From Rhodocytophaga aerolata (GTDB taxonomy: Bacteria > Bacteroidota > Bacteroidia > Cytophagales > 172606-1): DNA of 64,000 nt. The stretch is from NCBI RefSeq assembly GCF_030503435.1, contig NZ_JAUKPO010000005.1:248001-312000 (forward strand), given 5' to 3'. Both the position numbers and the translations under genes were made by a program. The notes under the pieces are model-generated. The model was not told where the DNA came from and made no database searches. It worked only from the letters and a program-made list of their open reading frames with translations. Below, one piece after another: positions 30,776 through 39,714 of this stretch. Each line of letters begins with the position of its first letter. Within the stretch, counting starts at the first letter, position 1.

Positions 30776-32236
30776 TTATTCATACTCCCACTTGTGTATC
30801 CAGGGATCGTGGGTTTGCTGCTGAAATTGTTTGAGCTTTTGCAACAACTGATTAAATATTGCTTTGTATTGAGCATTGTCTGCCAAATTATGGATTTCAT
30901 CTGGGTCTTTTTCTATATCATAGAGTTCAAATTGAGGCCGATGCAAAAATGCCTCAATACGTCGTTTACCAAATTTGGCCGAACCTGCTTGTAAGCTGCC
31001 TTGCCAGGTAAACGACTTCACTAAATCAAGGGCCAGGGGAAAAGGAAGCTGATGAGCAATATTATAAATCAACTTATATTGCCTTGTACGCACAGCCCGC
31101 ATCGGATAATACATAGTTATTTCATGCAAGGAATGCGAAGCATATACCTCGTCCCATCCACTGACATGCTCTTCCTCCAGAAGTTTCCGGAAGGAACGGC
31201 CATGAAAAGTTGGGTTGGCCGGTATGGCTCCTGCCAGATCCAGAATAGTTGGTGTAATATCTGCCCAGGATACCATCCCATTCTGAACTATTCCTTTTCT
31301 TTTTGAGCCAGGGTTCCGAATGATGCAGGGCAGTTTAATACCTGCTTCATAAAGCGTTGTTTTTGCTCCCGGGAACGCTACCCCATTGTCGGATAAGTAA
31401 ATAATAATGGTATTTTCATACTTGCCCGCTGCCTTCAAATAGGTTATCAATTTCCCAACGCCTTGGTCTACTCGGGAAACAGCCTGGTAATATTGTGCCA
31501 GTTCAGCCCGGCTTTCTTTAGTATCTGGCAGAAATGGAGGGACAAGCACCTGGCCTGGCTGATAGGTAACCTGTTTTACACCAGGATAACCTTCCTGACG
31601 GTTACCAAATGAGTTGGGTTCGCCAGCTGTACCGAAATCGGGTTCACCATTAGGGAATACTTTATTAGACCGGTGTGGGTCATCGGTAGCAAAATACAAG
31701 AAAAATGGCTTAGTAGTAGAAGTAATGAAGTCTTTGCTGAGTTCGGCCATTTGAACAGCATTACGTCCTAAGCTAGTAGGATCATTGGCCTTTCCGCCAG
31801 ATAATACGTTTTGAAAGGCATATACTTCTTCTGGGGCTACATGAAACTTACCTATTCTGGCTGTTTGATAACCTGCCTTGGCTAACAACACAGGTAAACT
31901 CTGCACATGTGCAAATGAATTAAAATGATGATAACTGTGCTCAAGCCCATACATGCCATTTGCATGATTATGCAAACCTGATAGAATTACCGTACGGCTA
32001 GGACTACAACTGGCAGACGTACAAAAAGCATTGGTAAAGCGTACTCCCTCAGCAGCCAGCTGATCCAAATTAGGGGTTTGAATTACCGGATTTCCATAAC
32101 ACCCCAGGGCATCTGTTCCATGATCATCGGCAATCAGTAAGATAATATTAGGTTTTGCGGTATTCCCTTGTGACCATGCACTCACCATATGCAACCACAT
32201 AAATAACAGCGTAAAATAGCAGCGCTTATATATCAT
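30776..32236 (-). CDS. Exported type I sulfatase
   Basis: A 486-residue sulfatase with signal peptide MIYKRCYFTLLFMWLHMVSA (the ATG at 32236 is preferred to an upstream one at 32281, since it places the signal peptide at the start). Asp37-Asp38 in IADDHGTDALGCYGN are Ca ligands. The CSPSR motif at residues 77-81 carries Cys77, the site converted to formylglycine by an FGE-type or radical-SAM enzyme. IIIYLSDNGVAFPGAKTTLYEAG follows. It hydrolyses sulfate esters in the periplasm; heparan N-sulfatase-like members look similar. No FGE gene is in the window. Divergent from the TonB receptor gene 426 bp away. Confidence 0.92.
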   Translation of the reverse strand: MIYKRCYFTLLFMWLHMVSAWSQGNTAKPNIILLIADDHGTDALGCYGNPVIQTPNLDQLAAEGVRFTNAFCTSASCSPSRTVILSGLHNHANGMYGLEHSYHHFNSFAHVQSLPVLLAKAGYQTARIGKFHVAPEEVYAFQNVLSGGKANDPTSLGRNAVQMAELSKDFITSTTKPFFLYFATDDPHRSNKVFPNGEPDFGTAGEPNSFGNRQEGYPGVKQVTYQPGQVLVPPFLPDTKESRAELAQYYQAVSRVDQGVGKLITYLKAAGKYENTIIIYLSDNGVAFPGAKTTLYEAGIKLPCIIRNPGSKRKGIVQNGMVSWADITPTILDLAGAIPANPTFHGRSFRKLLEEEHVSGWDEVYASHSLHEITMYYPMRAVRTRQYKLIYNIAHQLPFPLALDLVKSFTWQGSLQAGSAKFGKRRIEAFLHRPQFELYDIEKDPDEIHNLADNAQYKAIFNQLLQKLKQFQQQTHDPWIHKWEYE

Positions 32237-32662
32237 AAAGTTCAAAAAGCTAAGAAGTTGATTTGTAAATAACCCACTCAAGCTAATTTATACATAGAAA
32301 TTGGTGAGACGATATTCTCTGCTAAATATAATTTTTAAAAATAGTTTGCATTGTATTTTCTAATATATAATTTTGTCTATAGATTTTATAGAGATTAAAA
32401 TACAAGCACATGATACAGCAATCTTTACTCTGTTATACTTAGCTAAATAGGCTATCTATAGTGTCAATCTTTTACTTATAAGGCTTTACACACTAAATAA
32501 GAGAAGCATTGCTACAATGAAAGGTAATTTTTAACAAAGCGTAAAATCTAGTCTAACATTCATTTACTATTTATTAGCTGCAATGCCTATCATAAAAGGC
32601 AGGGGGAACCCTTATTGAAAAATTTAAAATATACATACCATACTAAACTAACATTTGTCGCA
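32237..32662. other. Divergent control region of sulfatase and TonB-receptor genes
   Basis: A 426-bp AT-rich gap. TATATTTA (minus strand, near 32325) may be the sulfatase -7 box. On the plus strand AACATTTG at 32650-32657 is a weak box only 5 nt before the receptor ATG. A tiny frame at 32517 shares ATGAAAGGTAAT with one at 36842 in the redoxin leader; this may be chance. No Cys-run ORF with a start codon was found here. Confidence 0.35.
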
Positions 32663-35212
32663 ATGAAAAAAATAGTACAAGTTATCTTACCCATCTTATT
32701 GTTGGCTAACGTTGCACTTGCCCAAGGGGTAGTGGTGGGAAAAATTAAAGACAGGGAAGGTTTACCTGTAGTTGCTGCAACGGTTGTAATAAAAGGAACT
32801 AACACGTATACAGTTGCCGATGCTGAGGGTCAGTTCAAGATTACTGCACAAAAACAAGCCCCTTTTACATTAGCTATTAGCTCTGTCGGGTTTAAACCTC
32901 AGGAAGTCAGGCTTACGGAACTACCAAATTCACCCTTGACAATAACCCTTATCGATGATAATTTACTGAATGAGGTGGTAGTTACCGCCAGAAGACGTAG
33001 TGAAACGGTGCAGGAAGTTCCCATTCCTATTTCAGTAGTAGGAGGCACTACCGTAGAAGAAGCAGGCGCTTTTAATGTAAACCGGATAAAAGAACTCGTT
33101 CCAACCGTGCAACTTTATTCCTCTAATCCGCGCAACACCACACTTAATATCCGCGGCTTAGGTTCTACCTTCGGGCTAACAAATGATGGCATCGACCCTG
33201 GTGTAGGCTTTTATGTAGATGGAGTATACTATGCCCGTCCTGCGGCTACTACTCTGGACTTTATTGACATAGAGCAGATAGAGGTCCTGCGTGGTCCGCA
33301 AGGAACTCTTTTCGGTAAGAATACAACAGCTGGCGCCTTTAACGTTACTACCCGTGCTCCTAGCTTTACGCCAGGTGCAAATTTTGAAGTAAGTTATGGC
33401 AATTATGGCTACATACAGGCAAAAAGTTCAGTTACAGGTCCGTTAGGAAAGAAGTTTGCCGGGCGGTTATCTTTCTCTGGTACACAGCGGGACGGCGTTC
33501 TTGAAAATGTAATTACCCAAAAATCGGTGAACGATCTCAATAATTTGGGTTTGCGGGGGCAATTGCTGTTCGTGCCAACAGACAATATTAAGATTACACT
33601 CGCAGCAGACGCTTCACGCCAGCGGCCAGATGGGTATGCACAAGTGGTAGCTGGCGTTGCTCCTACCCTACGCCCAGCTTACCGCCAGTTCGAGCAAATC
33701 ATTGCCGATCTTAACTACGATTTGCCAAGCAGAAATCCTTTTGACCGCAAAATTGATCATGATACACCCTGGAGATCGGGAAATGAATTAGGGGGTGTAT
33801 CACTCAATATTGACGCCAACATTGGGCCAGGAACATTAACCTCTACTACGGCCTGGCGGTATTGGAACTGGGACCCATCCAACGACCGGGACTTCACAGG
33901 ATTACCAGTGCTCACCTTATCCCAGGCAACCTCAAAACATGCACAATGGACACAAGAGGTACGTTACGCCGGAGATATTTCCTCCCGCTTGAGTGGGGTC
34001 ATCGGCCTTTTTGCCATCGGTCAGGACTTACAGACAGATCCGGTTCATACAGAGGAATCTGGTGCAGCTCAATGGCGGTTTTCCCAGAGTTCCACTAGCC
34101 CCCTCTGGCAAACACCAGGCCTGTTTGATGGCTATGGCATTCGAACCACCTCCAGACTTCAGACTTTCGGTGCAGCTGTATTCGGGCAGGTAGATTGGGC
34201 GATTACAGAACGGTTGCATGTATTACCCGGGCTCCGGTTCAATTACGACCAGAAAAAAGTAGATTTTAACCGGCAGACCTATGGTGGTTTGCAAACAGAA
34301 GATCCTGCGTTGATTGCCCTGAAAAGAGCCGTGTATACAGATCAGGCCTTTAATGCAGAGGTAGATGAATCTAACTTGTCGGGCCAGTTAACGCTGGCTT
34401 ATAAAGCCTCAACTAGCATGAATGCATTTGCTACCTATTCCAACAGCTATAAGCCTGTTGGGGTAAATTTAGGTGGTTTACCTACCGCAAATGGTGAAAT
34501 TCTACTTGATCTGGCCAGAATCAAACCAGAATATGTAAGTCATTTTGAGGTAGGAATTAAAACCAATCCGACTCCACAATCTACCCTAAATATTGTGCTC
34601 CACAACACGGATATTAAGGATTACCAGACCAATGTACAGACAGCAGAAGTAGGCGTAAACCGGGGTTATCTGGCTAATGCTGAGCGGGTACGTGTATTGG
34701 GTATTGAACTAGATGGAAACATCCGGCTGAACAATCATCTATCTTTCAATGGGGCAGTTGCCTACACAGATGGCAAATATGTTTCCTTCAAAAATGCACC
34801 AGTTCCGCTGGAAGAGACAGGTGGAGAAGCAGCCTTCAAAGATATATCTGGTGGTGCTTTACCAGGCATATCTAAATGGGCTGGCTCATTAGGTGGTGAA
34901 TTGGTCTCTAATCCAGGCAATTTCTTTGGCCAGCATGGGAAGTTCTTTCTTGCCGTGGACAGTTATTCACGTTCTTCCTTTTCTTCAAGCCCATCGCCTT
35001 CAAAATACCTGAATATTGGCGGATATGCATTGGTAAATGCCAGACTTGGATTTAGAGCGACTGACGGATTATCTATTTTCCTATGGTCACGTAACCTACT
35101 GGACAGAGATTATTTTGAGCAATTATTACCGGCAGCCGGTAATGCCGGTCACTACGCAGGTGTACTGGGCGATCCGAGGACTTTCGGTGTCACCTTACGT
35201 TATTCGTTTTAA
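32663..35212 (+). CDS. TonB-dependent outer-membrane receptor
   Basis: An 849-residue receptor beginning at ATG 32663 (MKKIVQVILPILLLANVALA signal peptide; the longer TTG-started frame at 32615 would bury it). A carboxypeptidase-regulatory-like domain (about 22-105) precedes the plug (EVVVTARRRSETVQEVPIPISVV and IEQIEVLRGPQGTLFGKNTTAGAFN) and a 22-stranded barrel ending FGVTLRYSF with the terminal Phe. It is of the classic siderophore/small-molecule type, not a SusC type, and no SusD partner follows. The substrate is unknown. The sulfatase, porin and redox neighbours hint at an organosulfur or sulfated compound. Confidence 0.9.
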   Translation: MKKIVQVILPILLLANVALAQGVVVGKIKDREGLPVVAATVVIKGTNTYTVADAEGQFKITAQKQAPFTLAISSVGFKPQEVRLTELPNSPLTITLIDDNLLNEVVVTARRRSETVQEVPIPISVVGGTTVEEAGAFNVNRIKELVPTVQLYSSNPRNTTLNIRGLGSTFGLTNDGIDPGVGFYVDGVYYARPAATTLDFIDIEQIEVLRGPQGTLFGKNTTAGAFNVTTRAPSFTPGANFEVSYGNYGYIQAKSSVTGPLGKKFAGRLSFSGTQRDGVLENVITQKSVNDLNNLGLRGQLLFVPTDNIKITLAADASRQRPDGYAQVVAGVAPTLRPAYRQFEQIIADLNYDLPSRNPFDRKIDHDTPWRSGNELGGVSLNIDANIGPGTLTSTTAWRYWNWDPSNDRDFTGLPVLTLSQATSKHAQWTQEVRYAGDISSRLSGVIGLFAIGQDLQTDPVHTEESGAAQWRFSQSSTSPLWQTPGLFDGYGIRTTSRLQTFGAAVFGQVDWAITERLHVLPGLRFNYDQKKVDFNRQTYGGLQTEDPALIALKRAVYTDQAFNAEVDESNLSGQLTLAYKASTSMNAFATYSNSYKPVGVNLGGLPTANGEILLDLARIKPEYVSHFEVGIKTNPTPQSTLNIVLHNTDIKDYQTNVQTAEVGVNRGYLANAERVRVLGIELDGNIRLNNHLSFNGAVAYTDGKYVSFKNAPVPLEETGGEAAFKDISGGALPGISKWAGSLGGELVSNPGNFFGQHGKFFLAVDSYSRSSFSSSPSPSKYLNIGGYALVNARLGFRATDGLSIFLWSRNLLDRDYFEQLLPAAGNAGHYAGVLGDPRTFGVTLRYSF

Positions 35213-35278: not shown

Positions 35279-35462
35279 TGCATTTTATTGATTGTTGATT
35301 GCAGCATAGTATCTCTTTTGTCAAAAACATCTTGTCACCCCATGCAATTGGGCTTGGATTTGTAAGATCCCTATACAATACCCACAATTTTTAAACATAG
35401 CTTTGAATAAAGCATAGTAACACTTCTTTTCTGATACGTATATGTTTGTCGGGCACTATGTA

Positions 35463-36772
35463 ATGATAAGGCTGTATGGAATACTAAGCTGCTCTTTATT
35501 CTATTTCAGTCTTTACTCTCAGGCAACCGATACATGGAAAGAAGAACTTAACACACACCTGGATATACGCCCCAGAGCAGAATTCAGGAATAATTTTATG
35601 TTAGCTGCCTCTGACAGCACCATGCCAGAAATATTTGCCAGCCAGCGCAACAGAGTACATCTTACGTATCAGCGTAGAAAATTAAAATTTCTTGCCTCAG
35701 CACAGGAGATCCATTTGTGGGGAAAACAAGGCAAACTGTCTAAAACTGGGAGCATTAATTTTTATGAACTTTATCTTGAACCTTCCCTAACCAAAAATCT
35801 ATCGTTTAGGATAGGCAGGCAAGGAATATCATTAGACAATGGCCGGTTATTTTCGGATGCTCCCTGGTCGCAGCAAGGCCGTGCGCATGAAGGAATACGG
35901 CTGCTATATGCTAGTTCTAGGCTGGCTGCCGATTTGATTGCTGCTTTTACCAGGAACTACGCAACCCATTTTGATGCAGCATACTCGCCAGTAACTGCCC
36001 ATACTTATACACTGCTTTTGGTACAGCATGTAAAGTATGCATTGAGCAAACAATTTAGTTTTACACTTATTAATTCTGCTGAAGCATTCAAGCGGATTGA
36101 TAAAACATCCGGACATTATTTGAGAGTTACTAATGGCGGAAGAGTGGAGTATTTGTTTAATAAACTGTATTTAACTCTTAATGGCTATTCTCAATATGGA
36201 GAGAATGCCACCAGAAAAAAATCAGTGCCTATTATCTGCAACCAGAAACAAGTTATACCATCAATAAAATCAAGTTGCGGCTAGGTGCAGAAATTTCAAG
36301 TGGAGAAAATATAGCTTTTGCCCATACTAACTCCCATTCTTTTATTCCTTTGTATGGTGTGGCTTGGAAATTTATGGGAAATATGAATTTTTTTACCAGG
36401 TTCCCTGCCGATGTAAATAATAGTGGGCTTATAAATCCTTATTTGTTTATAATTTTTACACTAACTAACAAAATATTTTTGCGGGCTGATGGAAATTTAT
36501 TTTATATGCAGTACCCACTTATTTATCCAGACAAATCTACCGCTAATAGGTATTTAGGGTTTGAAAACGATTTGTCGTACAACTACAAGATTTCACCTGC
36601 TATTGATATGCAAGGCGGTTTTTCTTACCTGCTTCCAACAGCAAGCATGGAATTGCTCAACAAAGTGAAAGATGCTCAACGAATTCCTGTGTGGAGTTAT
36701 CTTATGATATCCTTCAAACCTCGGGTATTTTCCTGGACCAGAACCCATTCTATGTTTCGGAATAATCTTTAG
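35463..36772 (+). pseudogene. Alginate-export-type porin gene with a -1 frameshift at A7
   Basis: Two open frames (from ATG 35463 to a TAG at 36284, and the other to 36772) make one outer-membrane porin-like protein of about 436 residues. The first part has signal peptide MIRLYGILSCSLFYFSLYS, then RPRAEFRNNF, the SQRNRVHLTY segment and FRIGRQGISLDNGRLF, all typical of alginate-export/OprP-like beta-barrels. At the A7 run 36215-36221 the frame changes. Reading ATC AGT GCC after the second AAA restores ISAYYLQPETSYTINKIKLR, which joins smoothly to the second part. TATGTTTG (35441-35448) is a perfect -7 box. It is either a broken gene, a sequencing error or a slippage site. The substrate is unknown. 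Confidence 0.8.
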
Positions 36773-36790
36773 CGGTCGTAATAGGTAAAA

Positions 36791-36874
36791 ATGATTCAAT
36801 ATATGCCAAACAGCGGTTTATTCTACTTTAACCTTGTAAAGATGAAAGGTAATCTTACATGCTGTATCCCATAA
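36791..36874 (+). CDS. Short ORF with Cys-Cys, possible leader peptide
   Basis: 27 codons from ATG 36791, beginning MIQYMPNSGLFYFNLVKMKG and ending TCCIP. It starts 18 nt after the porin stop and contains TGC TGT near its end. Alone it would be ignored; it is listed because two more short ORFs with longer Cys runs follow in the same leader. Confidence 0.2.
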   Translation: MIQYMPNSGLFYFNLVKMKGNLTCCIP

Positions 36875-36911
36875 ACGGTAATAAAATAAAAAATTTATTT
36901 GCTTTTGAAAC

Positions 36912-36919
36912 TAAATTTG
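36912..36919 (+). promoter_or_regulatory. Possible -7 box of the redoxin leader transcript
   Basis: TAAATTTG is a perfect TAnnTTTG match. No TTG is at the usual 20-nt distance (nearest TTTG at 36898-36901 is 10 nt away), so the call is weak. Transcription from here would give a leader of about 515 nt before the redoxin ATG at 37441. Confidence 0.3.
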
Positions 36920-36961
36920 TTCTATTTGCCTATATAATTAGTAGACTAACCAAAAAGTCAA

Positions 36962-37066
36962 ATGAATTACACAAGAACATATAAGCCGGTTATGGTTTCA
37001 GCCCCGAGTAGTGCTGATTTCATTCATTGCCTTTATGCTTCTTCTGGTTGCTGTTGTTGCCTCTAA
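36962..37066 (+). CDS. 34-codon ORF ending in four Cys codons (putative cysteine leader peptide)
   Basis: From ATG 36962 the frame starts MNYTRTYKPVMVSAPSSADF, continues with a single Cys and ends SSGCCCCL: TGC TGT TGT TGC at 37049-37060, stop TAA at 37064. It begins 43 nt after a perfect -7 box. The Cys codons are part of a potential small hairpin (GTTGTT 37053-37058 with AACAAC 37065-37070). Runs of identical rare-amino-acid codons at the end of a tiny ORF ahead of a metabolic operon are the hallmark of attenuation leader peptides; Cys-run leaders are described in mycobacteria. The role here is inference. Confidence 0.45.
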   Translation: MNYTRTYKPVMVSAPSSADFIHCLYASSGCCCCL

Positions 37067-37285
37067 CAACTGTACCTTACTTTTCCCATCTTAGGTTAGT
37101 TTTGGAACAGTAATTTGCTCAAAAGACACTATTCCTTGTCTTTAAAAATCATTTCTCTTGTTGCGTGCCTTTTTATAAAGTAATTCCTGTTTTTGAGTCT
37201 ATCTCAGGGATACTTTAGTAAAATAAATGCTGTTACTATCCGGCTTTAGCTATGCTTGGTAAACACAGCTCTGTATTCAAACTAT

Positions 37286-37423
37286 ATGGCTTCACAAATA
37301 AACATTTTGTTTGATAAACCAACTATAGCAATGCTCCAACAGGGCAACTATTATCCCTGGTATGACCGATGTTGTTGCTTACCCAGGTTTTCATTTATTG
37401 TTATGTTATTATTTCACATTTAA
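37286..37423 (+). CDS. 45-codon ORF with three Cys codons just before the redoxin gene
   Basis: From ATG 37286 the frame starts MASQINILFDKPTIAMLQQG and contains YDRCCCLPR (TGT TGT TGC at 37370-37378), then a hydrophobic end. Its stop TAA (37421-37423) lies 17 nt before the redoxin ATG at 37441, so ribosomes stalled at the Cys codons could affect initiation of the next gene by coupling. It is the second strong Cys-run ORF in the same leader. Confidence 0.4.
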   Translation: MASQINILFDKPTIAMLQQGNYYPWYDRCCCLPRFSFIVMLLFHI

Positions 37424-37440
37424 CTTATCTATTACTGATC

Positions 37441-38076
37441 ATGAATATTCAATCAACATATTTTCCTTCTAAGAACGAAACAAACTCATTTACTGCTCCT
37501 GCGCTGTTCCATGTTGAACCTGGCCAACCACTTAGTAAAGGAGATCAAGCACCTGCTTTTTCTTTGCCGGCTAATTTTGGAAAGTGGACTGGCTCTCTGG
37601 CAGAACTAGCCTCAGTTACTAAGATTACATCCAATGAATTAGTGAGCAGCCGCCCACTTGTTATCAGTTTTTACTCCCCTCAGTGGAATGACTATGGACA
37701 TCAGCACATACAAGCCTTAGTTCAGTTGTACACTGGAGTAAAAGCCCTGGGTGGAGAAATGCTAGTACTTACACCTGAGCCTCTGGCACAGATTTACCGA
37801 CTGGCTAATCACTACCAGATTCCATTTAGTATTGCCCACGATGCTGACAACCTGATTGCTTACCTGTTCGGCGTTTACGACACGCAAAATCCGGTATGGC
37901 ACCGGATAGCCGGTATTACAGCCGATGTACCTGCGCCTGCTACCTTTGTAATTGCCGGTAATGGACAGATTACGGCTGCCTTTATAGATTCCGACTTTCA
38001 AGATGCTTTACCTGCCAGGCCAGTGCTTTCAGCGGTATATGCTACCAGGGACAAGCGAATAAAAAAAGTAGCTTAA
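37441..38076 (+). CDS. Redoxin-like (AhpC/TSA fold) protein without the peroxidatic Cys
   Basis: A 211-residue thioredoxin-fold protein starting at ATG 37441 (a longer frame from 37369 adds a hydrophobic run and overlaps the Cys-run ORF). GDQAPAFSLPANFGKW is the redoxin opening. The loop that normally has the peroxidatic Cys reads FYSPQWNDYGHQHIQALVQLY, with no Cys. The cis-Pro loop is APATFVIAGNGQITAAFID. The whole protein lacks the usual Cys pair, so classical peroxidase activity is doubtful. It is followed by a CxxC-containing CMD-family protein and an SDR, suggesting one redox operon. Confidence 0.8.
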   Translation: MNIQSTYFPSKNETNSFTAPALFHVEPGQPLSKGDQAPAFSLPANFGKWTGSLAELASVTKITSNELVSSRPLVISFYSPQWNDYGHQHIQALVQLYTGVKALGGEMLVLTPEPLAQIYRLANHYQIPFSIAHDADNLIAYLFGVYDTQNPVWHRIAGITADVPAPATFVIAGNGQITAAFIDSDFQDALPARPVLSAVYATRDKRIKKVA

Positions 38077-38324: not shown

Positions 38325-38876
38325 ATGCCACGTATCAACCCGGTGAATCCCCAGCAAGCGCCACCTGCAATACAAGCGGCTTTTGAGAAACATATTACAG
38401 ATTATCAGGCACGTATCACAAACATGAAAGCTACCTTAGGTCATTCTTTGCTTGCCTTTGAAGTATATATGCAGTGGTACCCGCTTTATGAGCAAGTAAA
38501 GCAACTTCTTGGGGAGCGACTTGCCTACTTATATGCCCATGCCATTTCATCGGGCTCCAACTGCCCCTTGTGTACCACCTTTTTCCGCCGGATTATTATT
38601 GAGCACGGTGAAGATCCGGATAAACTTTCGATCACGCCAGAGGAACAGCATGTATTGAACTTAGGGAGTGAAATGGCACGTAACCAGGGACAAATACCTG
38701 ATACTATTTATGAGCATGTTGCTCCACGTTATACTGAACAGGAAATGGTTATACTCCTTGCTTTTGCAGGCCAGATGATTGCTACAAATGTATTCAGTAA
38801 TGCCATACAAACAGAAATAGACCCTTATTTAATACCGTATACAGTCTCCACTACGCGCAAACCAGATCATCCATAA
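38325..38876 (+). CDS. Carboxymuconolactone-decarboxylase/AhpD-like protein
   Basis: A 183-residue all-helical protein of the CMD/AhpD family. The signature is YLYAHAISSGSNCPLCTTFFRRIIIEHG, with a CxxC pair (CPLC) at about residues 84-87 and the conserved downstream His. In AhpD-type members this pair is a disulfide reductase site; other members decarboxylate or act on aromatic lactones. With a redoxin-like protein next door, an AhpC/AhpD-type pairing is tempting but unproven. It is 31 bp before the SDR gene and forms a transcription unit with it. Confidence 0.82.
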   Translation: MPRINPVNPQQAPPAIQAAFEKHITDYQARITNMKATLGHSLLAFEVYMQWYPLYEQVKQLLGERLAYLYAHAISSGSNCPLCTTFFRRIIIEHGEDPDKLSITPEEQHVLNLGSEMARNQGQIPDTIYEHVAPRYTEQEMVILLAFAGQMIATNVFSNAIQTEIDPYLIPYTVSTTRKPDHP

Positions 38877-38907
38877 CTATTTTATTGCCACCTAACTCTT
38901 GACTTTT

Positions 38908-39714
38908 ATGTCTGCTTACTTAAAGGATAAAGTTGCTTTTATTACCGGTGCGGCTCATGGACAAGGCCGTGCTACGGCTTTGGCACTTGCCGCAGAGGGT
39001 GTACATATTGCTGCCTTTGATATTGCCAGGCCTCTCTCCTACCCTGGCTATACCATGGGCTCGCCAGATGATCTGGACAGTTTACAAGAAGCCTGCGAAA
39101 AATTAGGAGTAAGTTGTCTTACATTTAGAGGGGATGTCCGCTTGGATGCAGATGTTACAGGGGCCGTAGCAAAAACGGAAGAAAAATTTAAGCACATAGA
39201 TATTTTATTTAATAACGCTGGTATTTGTGCGTATGGACTGGCAGATGAACTAACGGAAGATGCCTGGGATGCCATGCTTGCTATTAATCTGAAGGGTGCC
39301 TGGCTGGTAGCCAGAAGAATAATTCCCTTAATGAAAGCCCAATCTTCAGGCGTAATTATTAATAATTCCTCTATTGCCGGCTTGAGAGGAATGAACCGGC
39401 TAAGTCATTATGCGGCTTCTAAATGGGGATTAGTTGGCCTTACCAAATCATGGGCCATTGAACTGGCTCCCTATGCTATCCGGGTCAATTCCATACACCC
39501 TACCGGCGTAGATACCCCCATGAATGATGGATTAGCTTTTCTGGAAGGCAGCACGCCACAAGAAATAGCAGAACGTTCGGCAGGCAACTTACTGGATGTT
39601 CCCTGGATTACTACCGATGATGTAGCCAGGGCAGTGCTCTATCTAGTTTCCGAATCTGGCAGATATATCACTGGTTCGCAACTGGTGCTAGATGCCGGAT
39701 TGCTGACCAGGTAA
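38908..39714 (+). CDS. SDR oxidoreductase of the mycofactocin-coupled-like subgroup
   Basis: A 268-residue short-chain dehydrogenase starting at ATG 38908 (an in-frame TTG at 38899 also exists). The NAD-binding motif is TGAAHGQGRATALALAAEG. NNAGICAYG is conserved, and catalytic Ser is in NNSSIAGLRG with Tyr-x3-Lys in SHYAASKWG. An insertion after the second strand (about residues 41-70, LSYPGYTMGSPDDLDSLQEA) is typical of carveol-dehydrogenase/mycofactocin-coupled SDRs, which hold their nicotinamide tightly. The substrate is probably an alcohol or ketone, unknown here. It ends the sulfatase-TonB-redoxin region. Confidence 0.87.
   Translation: MSAYLKDKVAFITGAAHGQGRATALALAAEGVHIAAFDIARPLSYPGYTMGSPDDLDSLQEACEKLGVSCLTFRGDVRLDADVTGAVAKTEEKFKHIDILFNNAGICAYGLADELTEDAWDAMLAINLKGAWLVARRIIPLMKAQSSGVIINNSSIAGLRGMNRLSHYAASKWGLVGLTKSWAIELAPYAIRVNSIHPTGVDTPMNDGLAFLEGSTPQEIAERSAGNLLDVPWITTDDVARAVLYLVSESGRYITGSQLVLDAGLLTR

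Follow-up and report, generated by a model that had tools for sequence, protein, structure and literature searches.

A recurring cysteine-codon leader ORF as a probable attenuator of an operator-controlled sulfur-starvation operon in Rhodocytophaga aerolata

We analysed a stretch of 64,000 nt from Rhodocytophaga aerolata (NZ_JAUKPO010000005.1, positions 248,001 to 312,000, forward strand; referred to as the window) and focused on the leader in front of a gene for a redoxin-like protein. The original prediction for this DNA had described three short open reading frames (ORFs) with runs of cysteine codons in that leader and had proposed a cysteine-responsive attenuator. Positions, lengths and Cys codons of all three (ORF1 to ORF3, Table 1) proved to be correct. 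The three Cys-run ORFs of the gap exceed chance, and ORF2 is the real feature. We consider it likely, though well short of certain, that ORF2 (MNYTRTYKPVMVSAPSSADFIHCLYASSGCCCCL) acts as a cysteine-responsive, ribosome-stalling leader peptide and that the sulfur-starvation operon which it heads is controlled by an operator. ORFs that end in Cys recur in related leaders, which suggests that the genes are activated in part by a ribosome that slows down when cysteine is lacking, and the controlled gene set is probably switched on when sulfur is short.

Dinucleotide shuffles of the 651-nt gap contained on average 0.24 ATG-initiated ORFs with two consecutive Cys residues (CC). Three or more such ORFs occurred in 0.05% of 2000 shuffles and CCCC in 0.08% of 5000. 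However, it was the Cys runs that drew attention to this gap within the 64 kb, and four consecutive Cys codons (TGYTGYTGYTGY) occur 76 times on both strands of the 9.07-Mb genome; we therefore put the weight on conservation rather than on these probabilities. We read 30 of the 76 matches and this search key led nowhere. Chance as the source of the Cys-rich ORFs was ruled out by their recurrence in relatives.

The leaders of the window and of two relatives, G001 and G006, have a palindrome-like operator in common (TTTGyCTATnnAnTTAGTAGA). Across 113 aligned sites a TTG was found 25-27 nt 5' of the TTTG of the operator in 61-83% of the cases. We take this spacing to be the geometry of the Bacteroidota housekeeping promoter, so that the operator would overlap the -7 element and the transcription start. 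For the window this would place the start near 36935; ORF2 would then come first on the transcript, and ORF1 would not be transcribed with it. The AUG of ORF2 at 36962 then lies ∼27 nt inside the transcript and, if this start is right, ORF2 is not leaderless. ORF1 was thus dropped as a part of the leader, and with it the idea of a cascade of three equal ORFs.

In order to read the leaders of relatives we first searched for the redoxin-like protein (37441-38076) and looked at the leaders afterwards. Within the family five of eight genomes match the protein. In the same-genus genome G001 (locus L033) the operator has 0 mismatches and is followed by a leader ORF of 27 aa (MIITANSQVNIFSNVNPFTLTCRCCCC) that ends in TCRCCCC and starts 36 nt after the start of the operator, compared to 37 nt in the window. 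Outside the operator these two sequences align poorly. A second ORF in G001, ending in LSRCCSE, lies nearer to the gene. The redoxin leaders of G003 and G005 contain an ORF ending in ASYACYCCW. Across the order the protein was matched in 38 of 390 genomes at 39 places (E 1e-25 or better), of which we read 30 and scored Cys runs in the last eight residues. At least three consecutive Cys were observed at 4 of the 30 places (shuffles: 0.045, maximum 1) and at least two at 7 (shuffles: 1.4, maximum 5); the remaining places had none by this test. The leader ORFs of L232 and L233 end in CCC, and L212 has an internal CCC further from the stop. The leaders of orthologues hence have Cys runs in common, whereas between genera they differ at most other residues, which is the pattern of conservation that the original prediction had asked for.

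Similar leaders were found at an independent gene with the operator. We used a periplasmic substrate-binding-like protein (SBP), which has a weak PstS-like match, as protein query. The window genome did not match it at E 1e-30, whereas 31 of the 390 genomes of the order did. Reading 30 SBP loci, we found an ATG-initiated ORF with CC in the leaders of 14 of the 16 closest (L181-L196, except L187 and L193) and also in those of L204 and L205, whereas the remaining loci of the 30 had none. A CC ORF in L209 overlaps the start of the SBP gene and was excluded from the count. A named collection yielded 47 SBP loci (in Dyadobacter, Ohtaekwangia, Chryseolinea, Chryseosolibacter, Parachryseolinea, Pseudochryseolinea, Xanthocytophaga and metagenome-assembled genomes), and 37 of the 47 have a CC ORF up to 600 nt upstream of the SBP gene; in L281 it lies upstream of the operator-like match. 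For the analysis of run lengths 40 loci were kept, as the match starts elsewhere in the locus for L274, L278 and L282 and four have no operator at up to 3 mismatches. At least two, three and four consecutive Cys in the last eight residues were observed in 33, 28 and 15 of the 40 leaders, compared to means of 0.8, 0.03 and 0 in shuffles; the reverse complement gave 1, 0 and 0. When all residues were scored for runs of three near the stop, Cys formed 28, Ile 1 and Leu 1. The Cys codons comprise 90 TGT and 33 TGC, and between genera the Cys run alone is seen in common.

We then turn to the operator by itself. In the eight family genomes a search with up to 2 mismatches returned 31 matches compared to 19 for the reversed control pattern, and many of the family matches are thus chance. 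The gene-adjacent sites precede SusC/TonB-type receptors, sulfatases and a periplasmic protein, and three of them (L070, L077, L081) showed new Cys-run ORFs. With up to 1 mismatch the operator was found in 69 of the 390 genomes of the order, with 126 matches compared to 22 for the reversed control. The sites that were fetched precede CysD, a CysH-like reductase, O-acetylhomoserine-sulfhydrylase-like enzymes and an SLC13-like transporter as well as sulfatases and formylglycine-enzyme-like proteins; these names are our readings from the sequence and were not taken from a database. Among the loci fetched by the operator alone there are 91 distinct sites. Eight are SBP sites, six of them with a CC ORF. 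For the other 83 sites we observed a CC ORF in 9 (shuffles: 2.1, maximum 5) and a CCC ORF in 3 (shuffles: 0.13, maximum 2), all three in the family of the window. The leader thus appears to be a module on part of the regulon.

Similar leaders are also found further away. In 395 genomes drawn from the class a narrower operator pattern occurred at 13 sites in 12 genomes, all outside the order. The Cys-rich leader ORFs at these sites end in CCCC (L297), CMCMC (L299), MCMCC (L293) and MCFCC (L294, L300), and TTG or GTG is the start codon in three of the five. In L289 Cys residues occur only singly. The leader in L293 precedes a hexapeptide-repeat acyltransferase (which we read as serine-acetyltransferase-like) and, further on, the beginning of a cysteine-synthase-like PALP enzyme, a context that ties the leader to cysteine synthesis itself. 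In L299 the leader ORF spans 28-154 nt after the operator start, ends in alternating Met and Cys (MCMCMC) and precedes a TonB receptor.

The mechanism that we propose has four steps, the first two of which come from comparison. Transcription would start at a Bacteroidota-type promoter with its -7 element fused to the operator, to which a putative sulfur regulator would bind. The first ORF of this transcript would then have several Cys codons in a row close to its stop, and it is this run that is kept between genera. When charged tRNA-Cys is scarce, the ribosome would stall on the Cys codons and downstream expression would continue; when cysteine is plentiful, the ribosome would finish the ORF and expression would be cut short. 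The nature of the cut is the least certain step. As there is no conserved intrinsic terminator, Rho-type termination may act in the untranslated stretch, which is rich in T and poor in G, or translation may be blocked. Between the Cys codons and the gene the window has 40% T, and 19% C compared to 14% G. Such a composition would be favourable to Rho-type termination, a mechanism proposed for the mycobacterial cys leaders (PMC1262725). The folding stability of this stretch, expressed as z against shuffles, was -2.55 for the window and -2.21 for G001 (mean of 36 regions: -1.0). The window stretch is more stable than its shuffles, so a structural switch is conceivable as well.

Attenuators of the trp and his type rely on codon-specific ribosome stalling in a leader ORF. 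Our proposal shares this principle, but no terminator/antiterminator pair was found here. The mycobacterial poly-cysteine upstream ORFs (uORFs) were reportedly tested as cysteine-responsive attenuators (Canestrari 2020, cited in PMC13236596) and are reported to be leaderless. By its anatomy the window feature reads as a poly-Cys attenuator. ORF2 is a short 5' leader ORF with consecutive Cys codons near its stop, and its link to genes of cysteine or sulfur supply is one of association, through the shared operator regulon and the sulfatase and sulfur-poor TonB receptor next door. The likeness to the mycobacterial uORFs extends to the position before cysteine or sulfur genes and to the reported lack of a conserved intrinsic terminator. 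They differ in that they belong to another phylum and are leaderless, whereas the AUG in the window is expected inside the transcript and the promoter is fused to an operator; furthermore, some members of the operator regulon also have an S-adenosylmethionine (SAM) riboswitch.

In Mycobacterium and Propionibacterium the cys operons are predicted to be preceded by short ORFs with a Cys run close to the stop, and the same was predicted for cbs in Bifidobacterium; no conserved terminators were reported for them (PMC1262725). In Rhodobacterales uORFC-8-2 lies before cysS; it has two tandem Cys codons, ribosome stalling was inferred and an intrinsic terminator is reported for all cases (PMC8632094). 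It thus shares the tandem Cys codons with ORF2 but differs in their number, the target gene and the terminator. For Flavobacterium psychrophilum leader-peptide attenuation of amino-acid operons is mentioned, with cysteine not among the amino acids in the passage concerned (PMC9723704). Among the literature matches listed, which covered few subscription journals, we found no cysteine leader peptide for Bacteroidota; the reports of such peptides concern Actinobacteria and, ahead of cysS, alpha-proteobacteria. If our reading is true, a group of environmental bacteria has a sulfur-starvation regulon whose outline is now visible, and TonB receptors and sulfatases without known substrate can be connected with the supply of sulfur. 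The combination of operator and Cys-run ORF would serve as a marker for finding regulon members, and leaders with both a SAM riboswitch and a Cys ORF would provide naturally occurring tandems. Tiny ORFs that end in Cys tend to be missed by annotation and can be recognised in this way.

There are several other possible explanations for the Cys runs. The ORF could make a functional Cys-rich micropeptide that binds metals or thiols and acts in trans. Adjacent Cys residues can bind metals and the ORFs have normal starts and stops, but it is only the Cys run that recurs between genera, and the ORF lies between operator and gene each time one was called. Furthermore, ORF2 has no convincing homologue in 58 other genomes (a search of 59 genomes, best E 0.03 outside its own locus) and was rejected as a conserved small protein. 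We consider a micropeptide unlikely. Sensing of a metal such as copper in place of cysteine supply, as for the CutF/CcaF uORFs, which reportedly also carry Cys, appears slightly more improbable still. The genes behind the window leader encode an AhpC-TSA-like protein, a protein without family and a short-chain dehydrogenase, none of them a copper-handling protein. Across the regulon the downstream genes and the shared operator point to sulfur. Cys runs and the alternation of Met and Cys in L299 likewise fit the codons of sulfur amino acids.

We give equally little credence to a conserved RNA pairing of the TGTTGTTGC stretch with the Cys codons as a by-product. This stretch can form a hairpin in the window, where GTTGTT/AACAAC spans the four Cys codons of ORF2 as originally described, and there are structured elements in related leaders. 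However, the run is in frame with an upstream start, lies near the stop, uses both TGT and TGC and is replaced by CMCMC or MCFCC elsewhere. The G001 sequence after its Cys run lacks the hairpin, which was therefore discarded as a conserved element.

The remaining alternative is that the operator alone controls the genes and that the Cys ORF of the window is a relic or chance. Several observations are in its favour or weigh more generally against a cysteine leader. G006 has a perfect operator and a short leader without a Cys-containing leader ORF, and 74 of the 83 non-SBP operator sites have no CC ORF, some of these sites being chance matches. In the window genome neither cysD nor cysH has an operator (up to 3 mismatches) in the 1.5 kb upstream or a Cys leader nearby; cysD stands behind another gene and its promoter may lie further up. 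The SBP loci of one genus share ancestry and their counts are therefore not independent. The Dyadobacter leaders also share a start region with two Ser codons and a GGTGG segment, and for two Dyadobacter loci (L245, L262) no Cys ORF was found. Outside the order the 13 operator matches compare to 6 control matches, the 5 of 13 sites with a short Cys-rich leader ORF are a raw count, and for distant SBP homologues in the class operator and Cys leader were absent in 17 of 17 cases. Finally, an intrinsic terminator (hairpin with T-run) was looked for and rejected: there is none in the window between 36700 and 37500, and of 36 regions that separate the Cys codons from the gene, 7 have terminator-like hairpins (2.35, maximum 5, in 20 mononucleotide shuffles), which shows no general or conserved terminator. 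Against control by the operator alone stand the enrichment of Cys runs at SBP leaders and the counterpart in G001, and we regard it as very unlikely. The cysteine-codon leader of a sulfur-related operon is thus retained from the original prediction on the basis of recurring Cys runs and a shared sulfur operator, whereas ORF1, the thiol chemistry of the redoxin and a conserved hairpin are not.

ORF3 may be a second Cys leader, although weakly so, since it has a counterpart in one relative only, the G001 ORF near the gene start. Counted from an upstream TTG it has 55 codons. Its Cys codons are TGT TGT TGC and its stop lies 17 nt ahead of the redoxin-like ATG (37441). The suggested multi-ORF cascade agrees with G001, where a CCCC ORF and an RCC ORF share one leader, but elsewhere we mostly read one Cys ORF per leader.

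The related leaders contain a second RNA element that is not seen in the window. Of the 40 SBP leaders, 36 have CCACC up to 45 nt from the operator, compared to 0.8 in mononucleotide shuffles, and 36 have GGTGG at a later position, compared to 4.1; the leaders of the window and G001 have neither. For 25 Dyadobacter leaders CCACC forms part of a hairpin loop, while an AUG of the leader ORF lies within another hairpin. For this structure the cells with both-side changes (21 compared to 6.9) and the covariation score (0.152 compared to 0.100) were above all 500 shuffles, whereas the number of pairs with both-side changes (5 compared to 3.5, reached by 74 of 500 shuffles) and the number of pair types (reached by 330 of 500) were not exceptional. 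All five covarying pairs are in the first hairpin. CCACC/GGUGG never varies, so covariation is silent on that pairing. The distance from the end of GGTGG to the Cys run is 26-35 nt and varies by multiples of three. One alignment of related leader structures comprised seven of nine sequences.

In the Chryseolinea group the SAM riboswitch (RF00162) lies ahead of the poly-Cys ORF in L263, L265, L267 and L271 (∼2530-2740; E 1e-14 or better) and was not matched in L266, L268, L269 and L272. GGUGG is here found in a hairpin after the leader ORF. Among the loci fetched by the operator, 2 of 13 searched have the riboswitch in the leader. Unlike these other leaders of the regulon, the window leader lacks it (no covariance-model match in 36700-37500 at E up to 5), and known RNA families gave only sub-threshold matches to unrelated families there. 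It is conceivable, though on balance we doubt it, that sulfur status is read up to three times per transcript, by the operator at the start site, by the SAM riboswitch in some genera and by the poly-Cys leader ORF. A new RNA element would link these, with the stalled ribosome deciding the CCACC/GGUGG pairing, and the window would be the simplest form with operator and leader only. The element would consist of a 5' hairpin with CCACC in its loop and of the complementary GGUGG, which in Dyadobacter lies before the Cys codons and in the Chryseolinea group within a hairpin loop further downstream. Between leader ORF and SBP gene L263-L272 also show a long hairpin with the loop UUGGUGG and a CCACCAA or CCGCCAA flank, for which the loci searched gave no Rfam match at E up to 1.

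Table 1. Coordinates of the leader features and neighbouring genes in the window
Feature	Position	Strand	Remarks
Sulfatase, divergent neighbour	30776..32281	-	PF00884 E 1.4e-54
Second operator site, 2 mismatches	32372..32392	+	before TonB receptor; weak alone (31 vs 19 control in family search)
10-codon ORF MIQQSLLCYT, one Cys near end	32410..32442	+	after second operator; candidate only
TonB-dependent receptor	32615..35212	+	PF00593, PF07715; 0 Cys, 2 Met in 865 aa
ORF1	36791..36874	+	27 codons, ends LTCCIP; 5' of promoter/operator, judged not part of device
-33 promoter element TTTG	36898..36901	+	read from sequence; shifted one base in window
Operator fused to -7 promoter element, TTTGCCTATATAATTAGTAGA	36925..36945	+	0 mismatches to pattern; common to window, G001, G006
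ORF2, proposed cysteine leader peptide	36962..37066	+	34 codons, ends SGCCCCL
ORF2 Cys codons TGC TGT TGT TGC, proposed stalling site	37049..37060	+	read from sequence
ORF3, possible second Cys leader	37286..37423	+	45 codons from ATG; Cys codons 37370-37378
Redoxin-like (AhpC-TSA) protein, first controlled gene	37441..38076	+	Pfam PF00578 E 3e-15; 0 Cys, 2 Met in 211 aa
CMD-like protein (label of original prediction)	38325..38876	+	no family match
Short-chain dehydrogenase	38899..39714	+	PF13561 E 8e-52

Proteins made under sulfur starvation are expected to be sulfur-poor, and those encoded behind the operator are almost free of Cys and Met. The TonB receptor has the lowest Cys and Met share of the 35 window ORFs of at least 250 aa (0.24% for the 849-aa ATG form compared to a median of 3.27%). 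On average 44 SBP proteins contain 0.022% Cys and 0.25% Met. The redoxin-like orthologues of G001, G003 and G005 have 0 Cys and that of G006 has one, whereas the more distant relatives L232 and L233 retain two (CPC). Without Cys the window protein cannot work by a cysteine thiol; its redoxin label is borne out by the AhpC-TSA match only. Of the suggested sulfur or thiol control, the sulfur part agrees with the sulfur-poor proteins and with an operator common to cysD, a cysH-like gene, sulfatases and SAM-riboswitch leaders, and the thiol part does not agree with a redoxin without cysteine. Pfam and NCBIfam searches gave no support for the CMD label. The genes of the regulon (TonB receptors, the substrate-binding-like protein, sulfatases and the redoxin-like protein) probably serve sulfur scavenging.

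Two minor observations concern other ORFs. From ∼1489 in L022 there is a Cys-rich ORF (...GCCNCCCNCCCCWGAEEAVIAK) that is perhaps a modified-peptide precursor and is unrelated to the Cys leader. In the window a porin-like gene is split over two overlapping frames (35442-36284 and 36275-36772), as by a frameshift or sequence error; the two pieces were searched separately and the first frame showed a weak Alginate_exp match.

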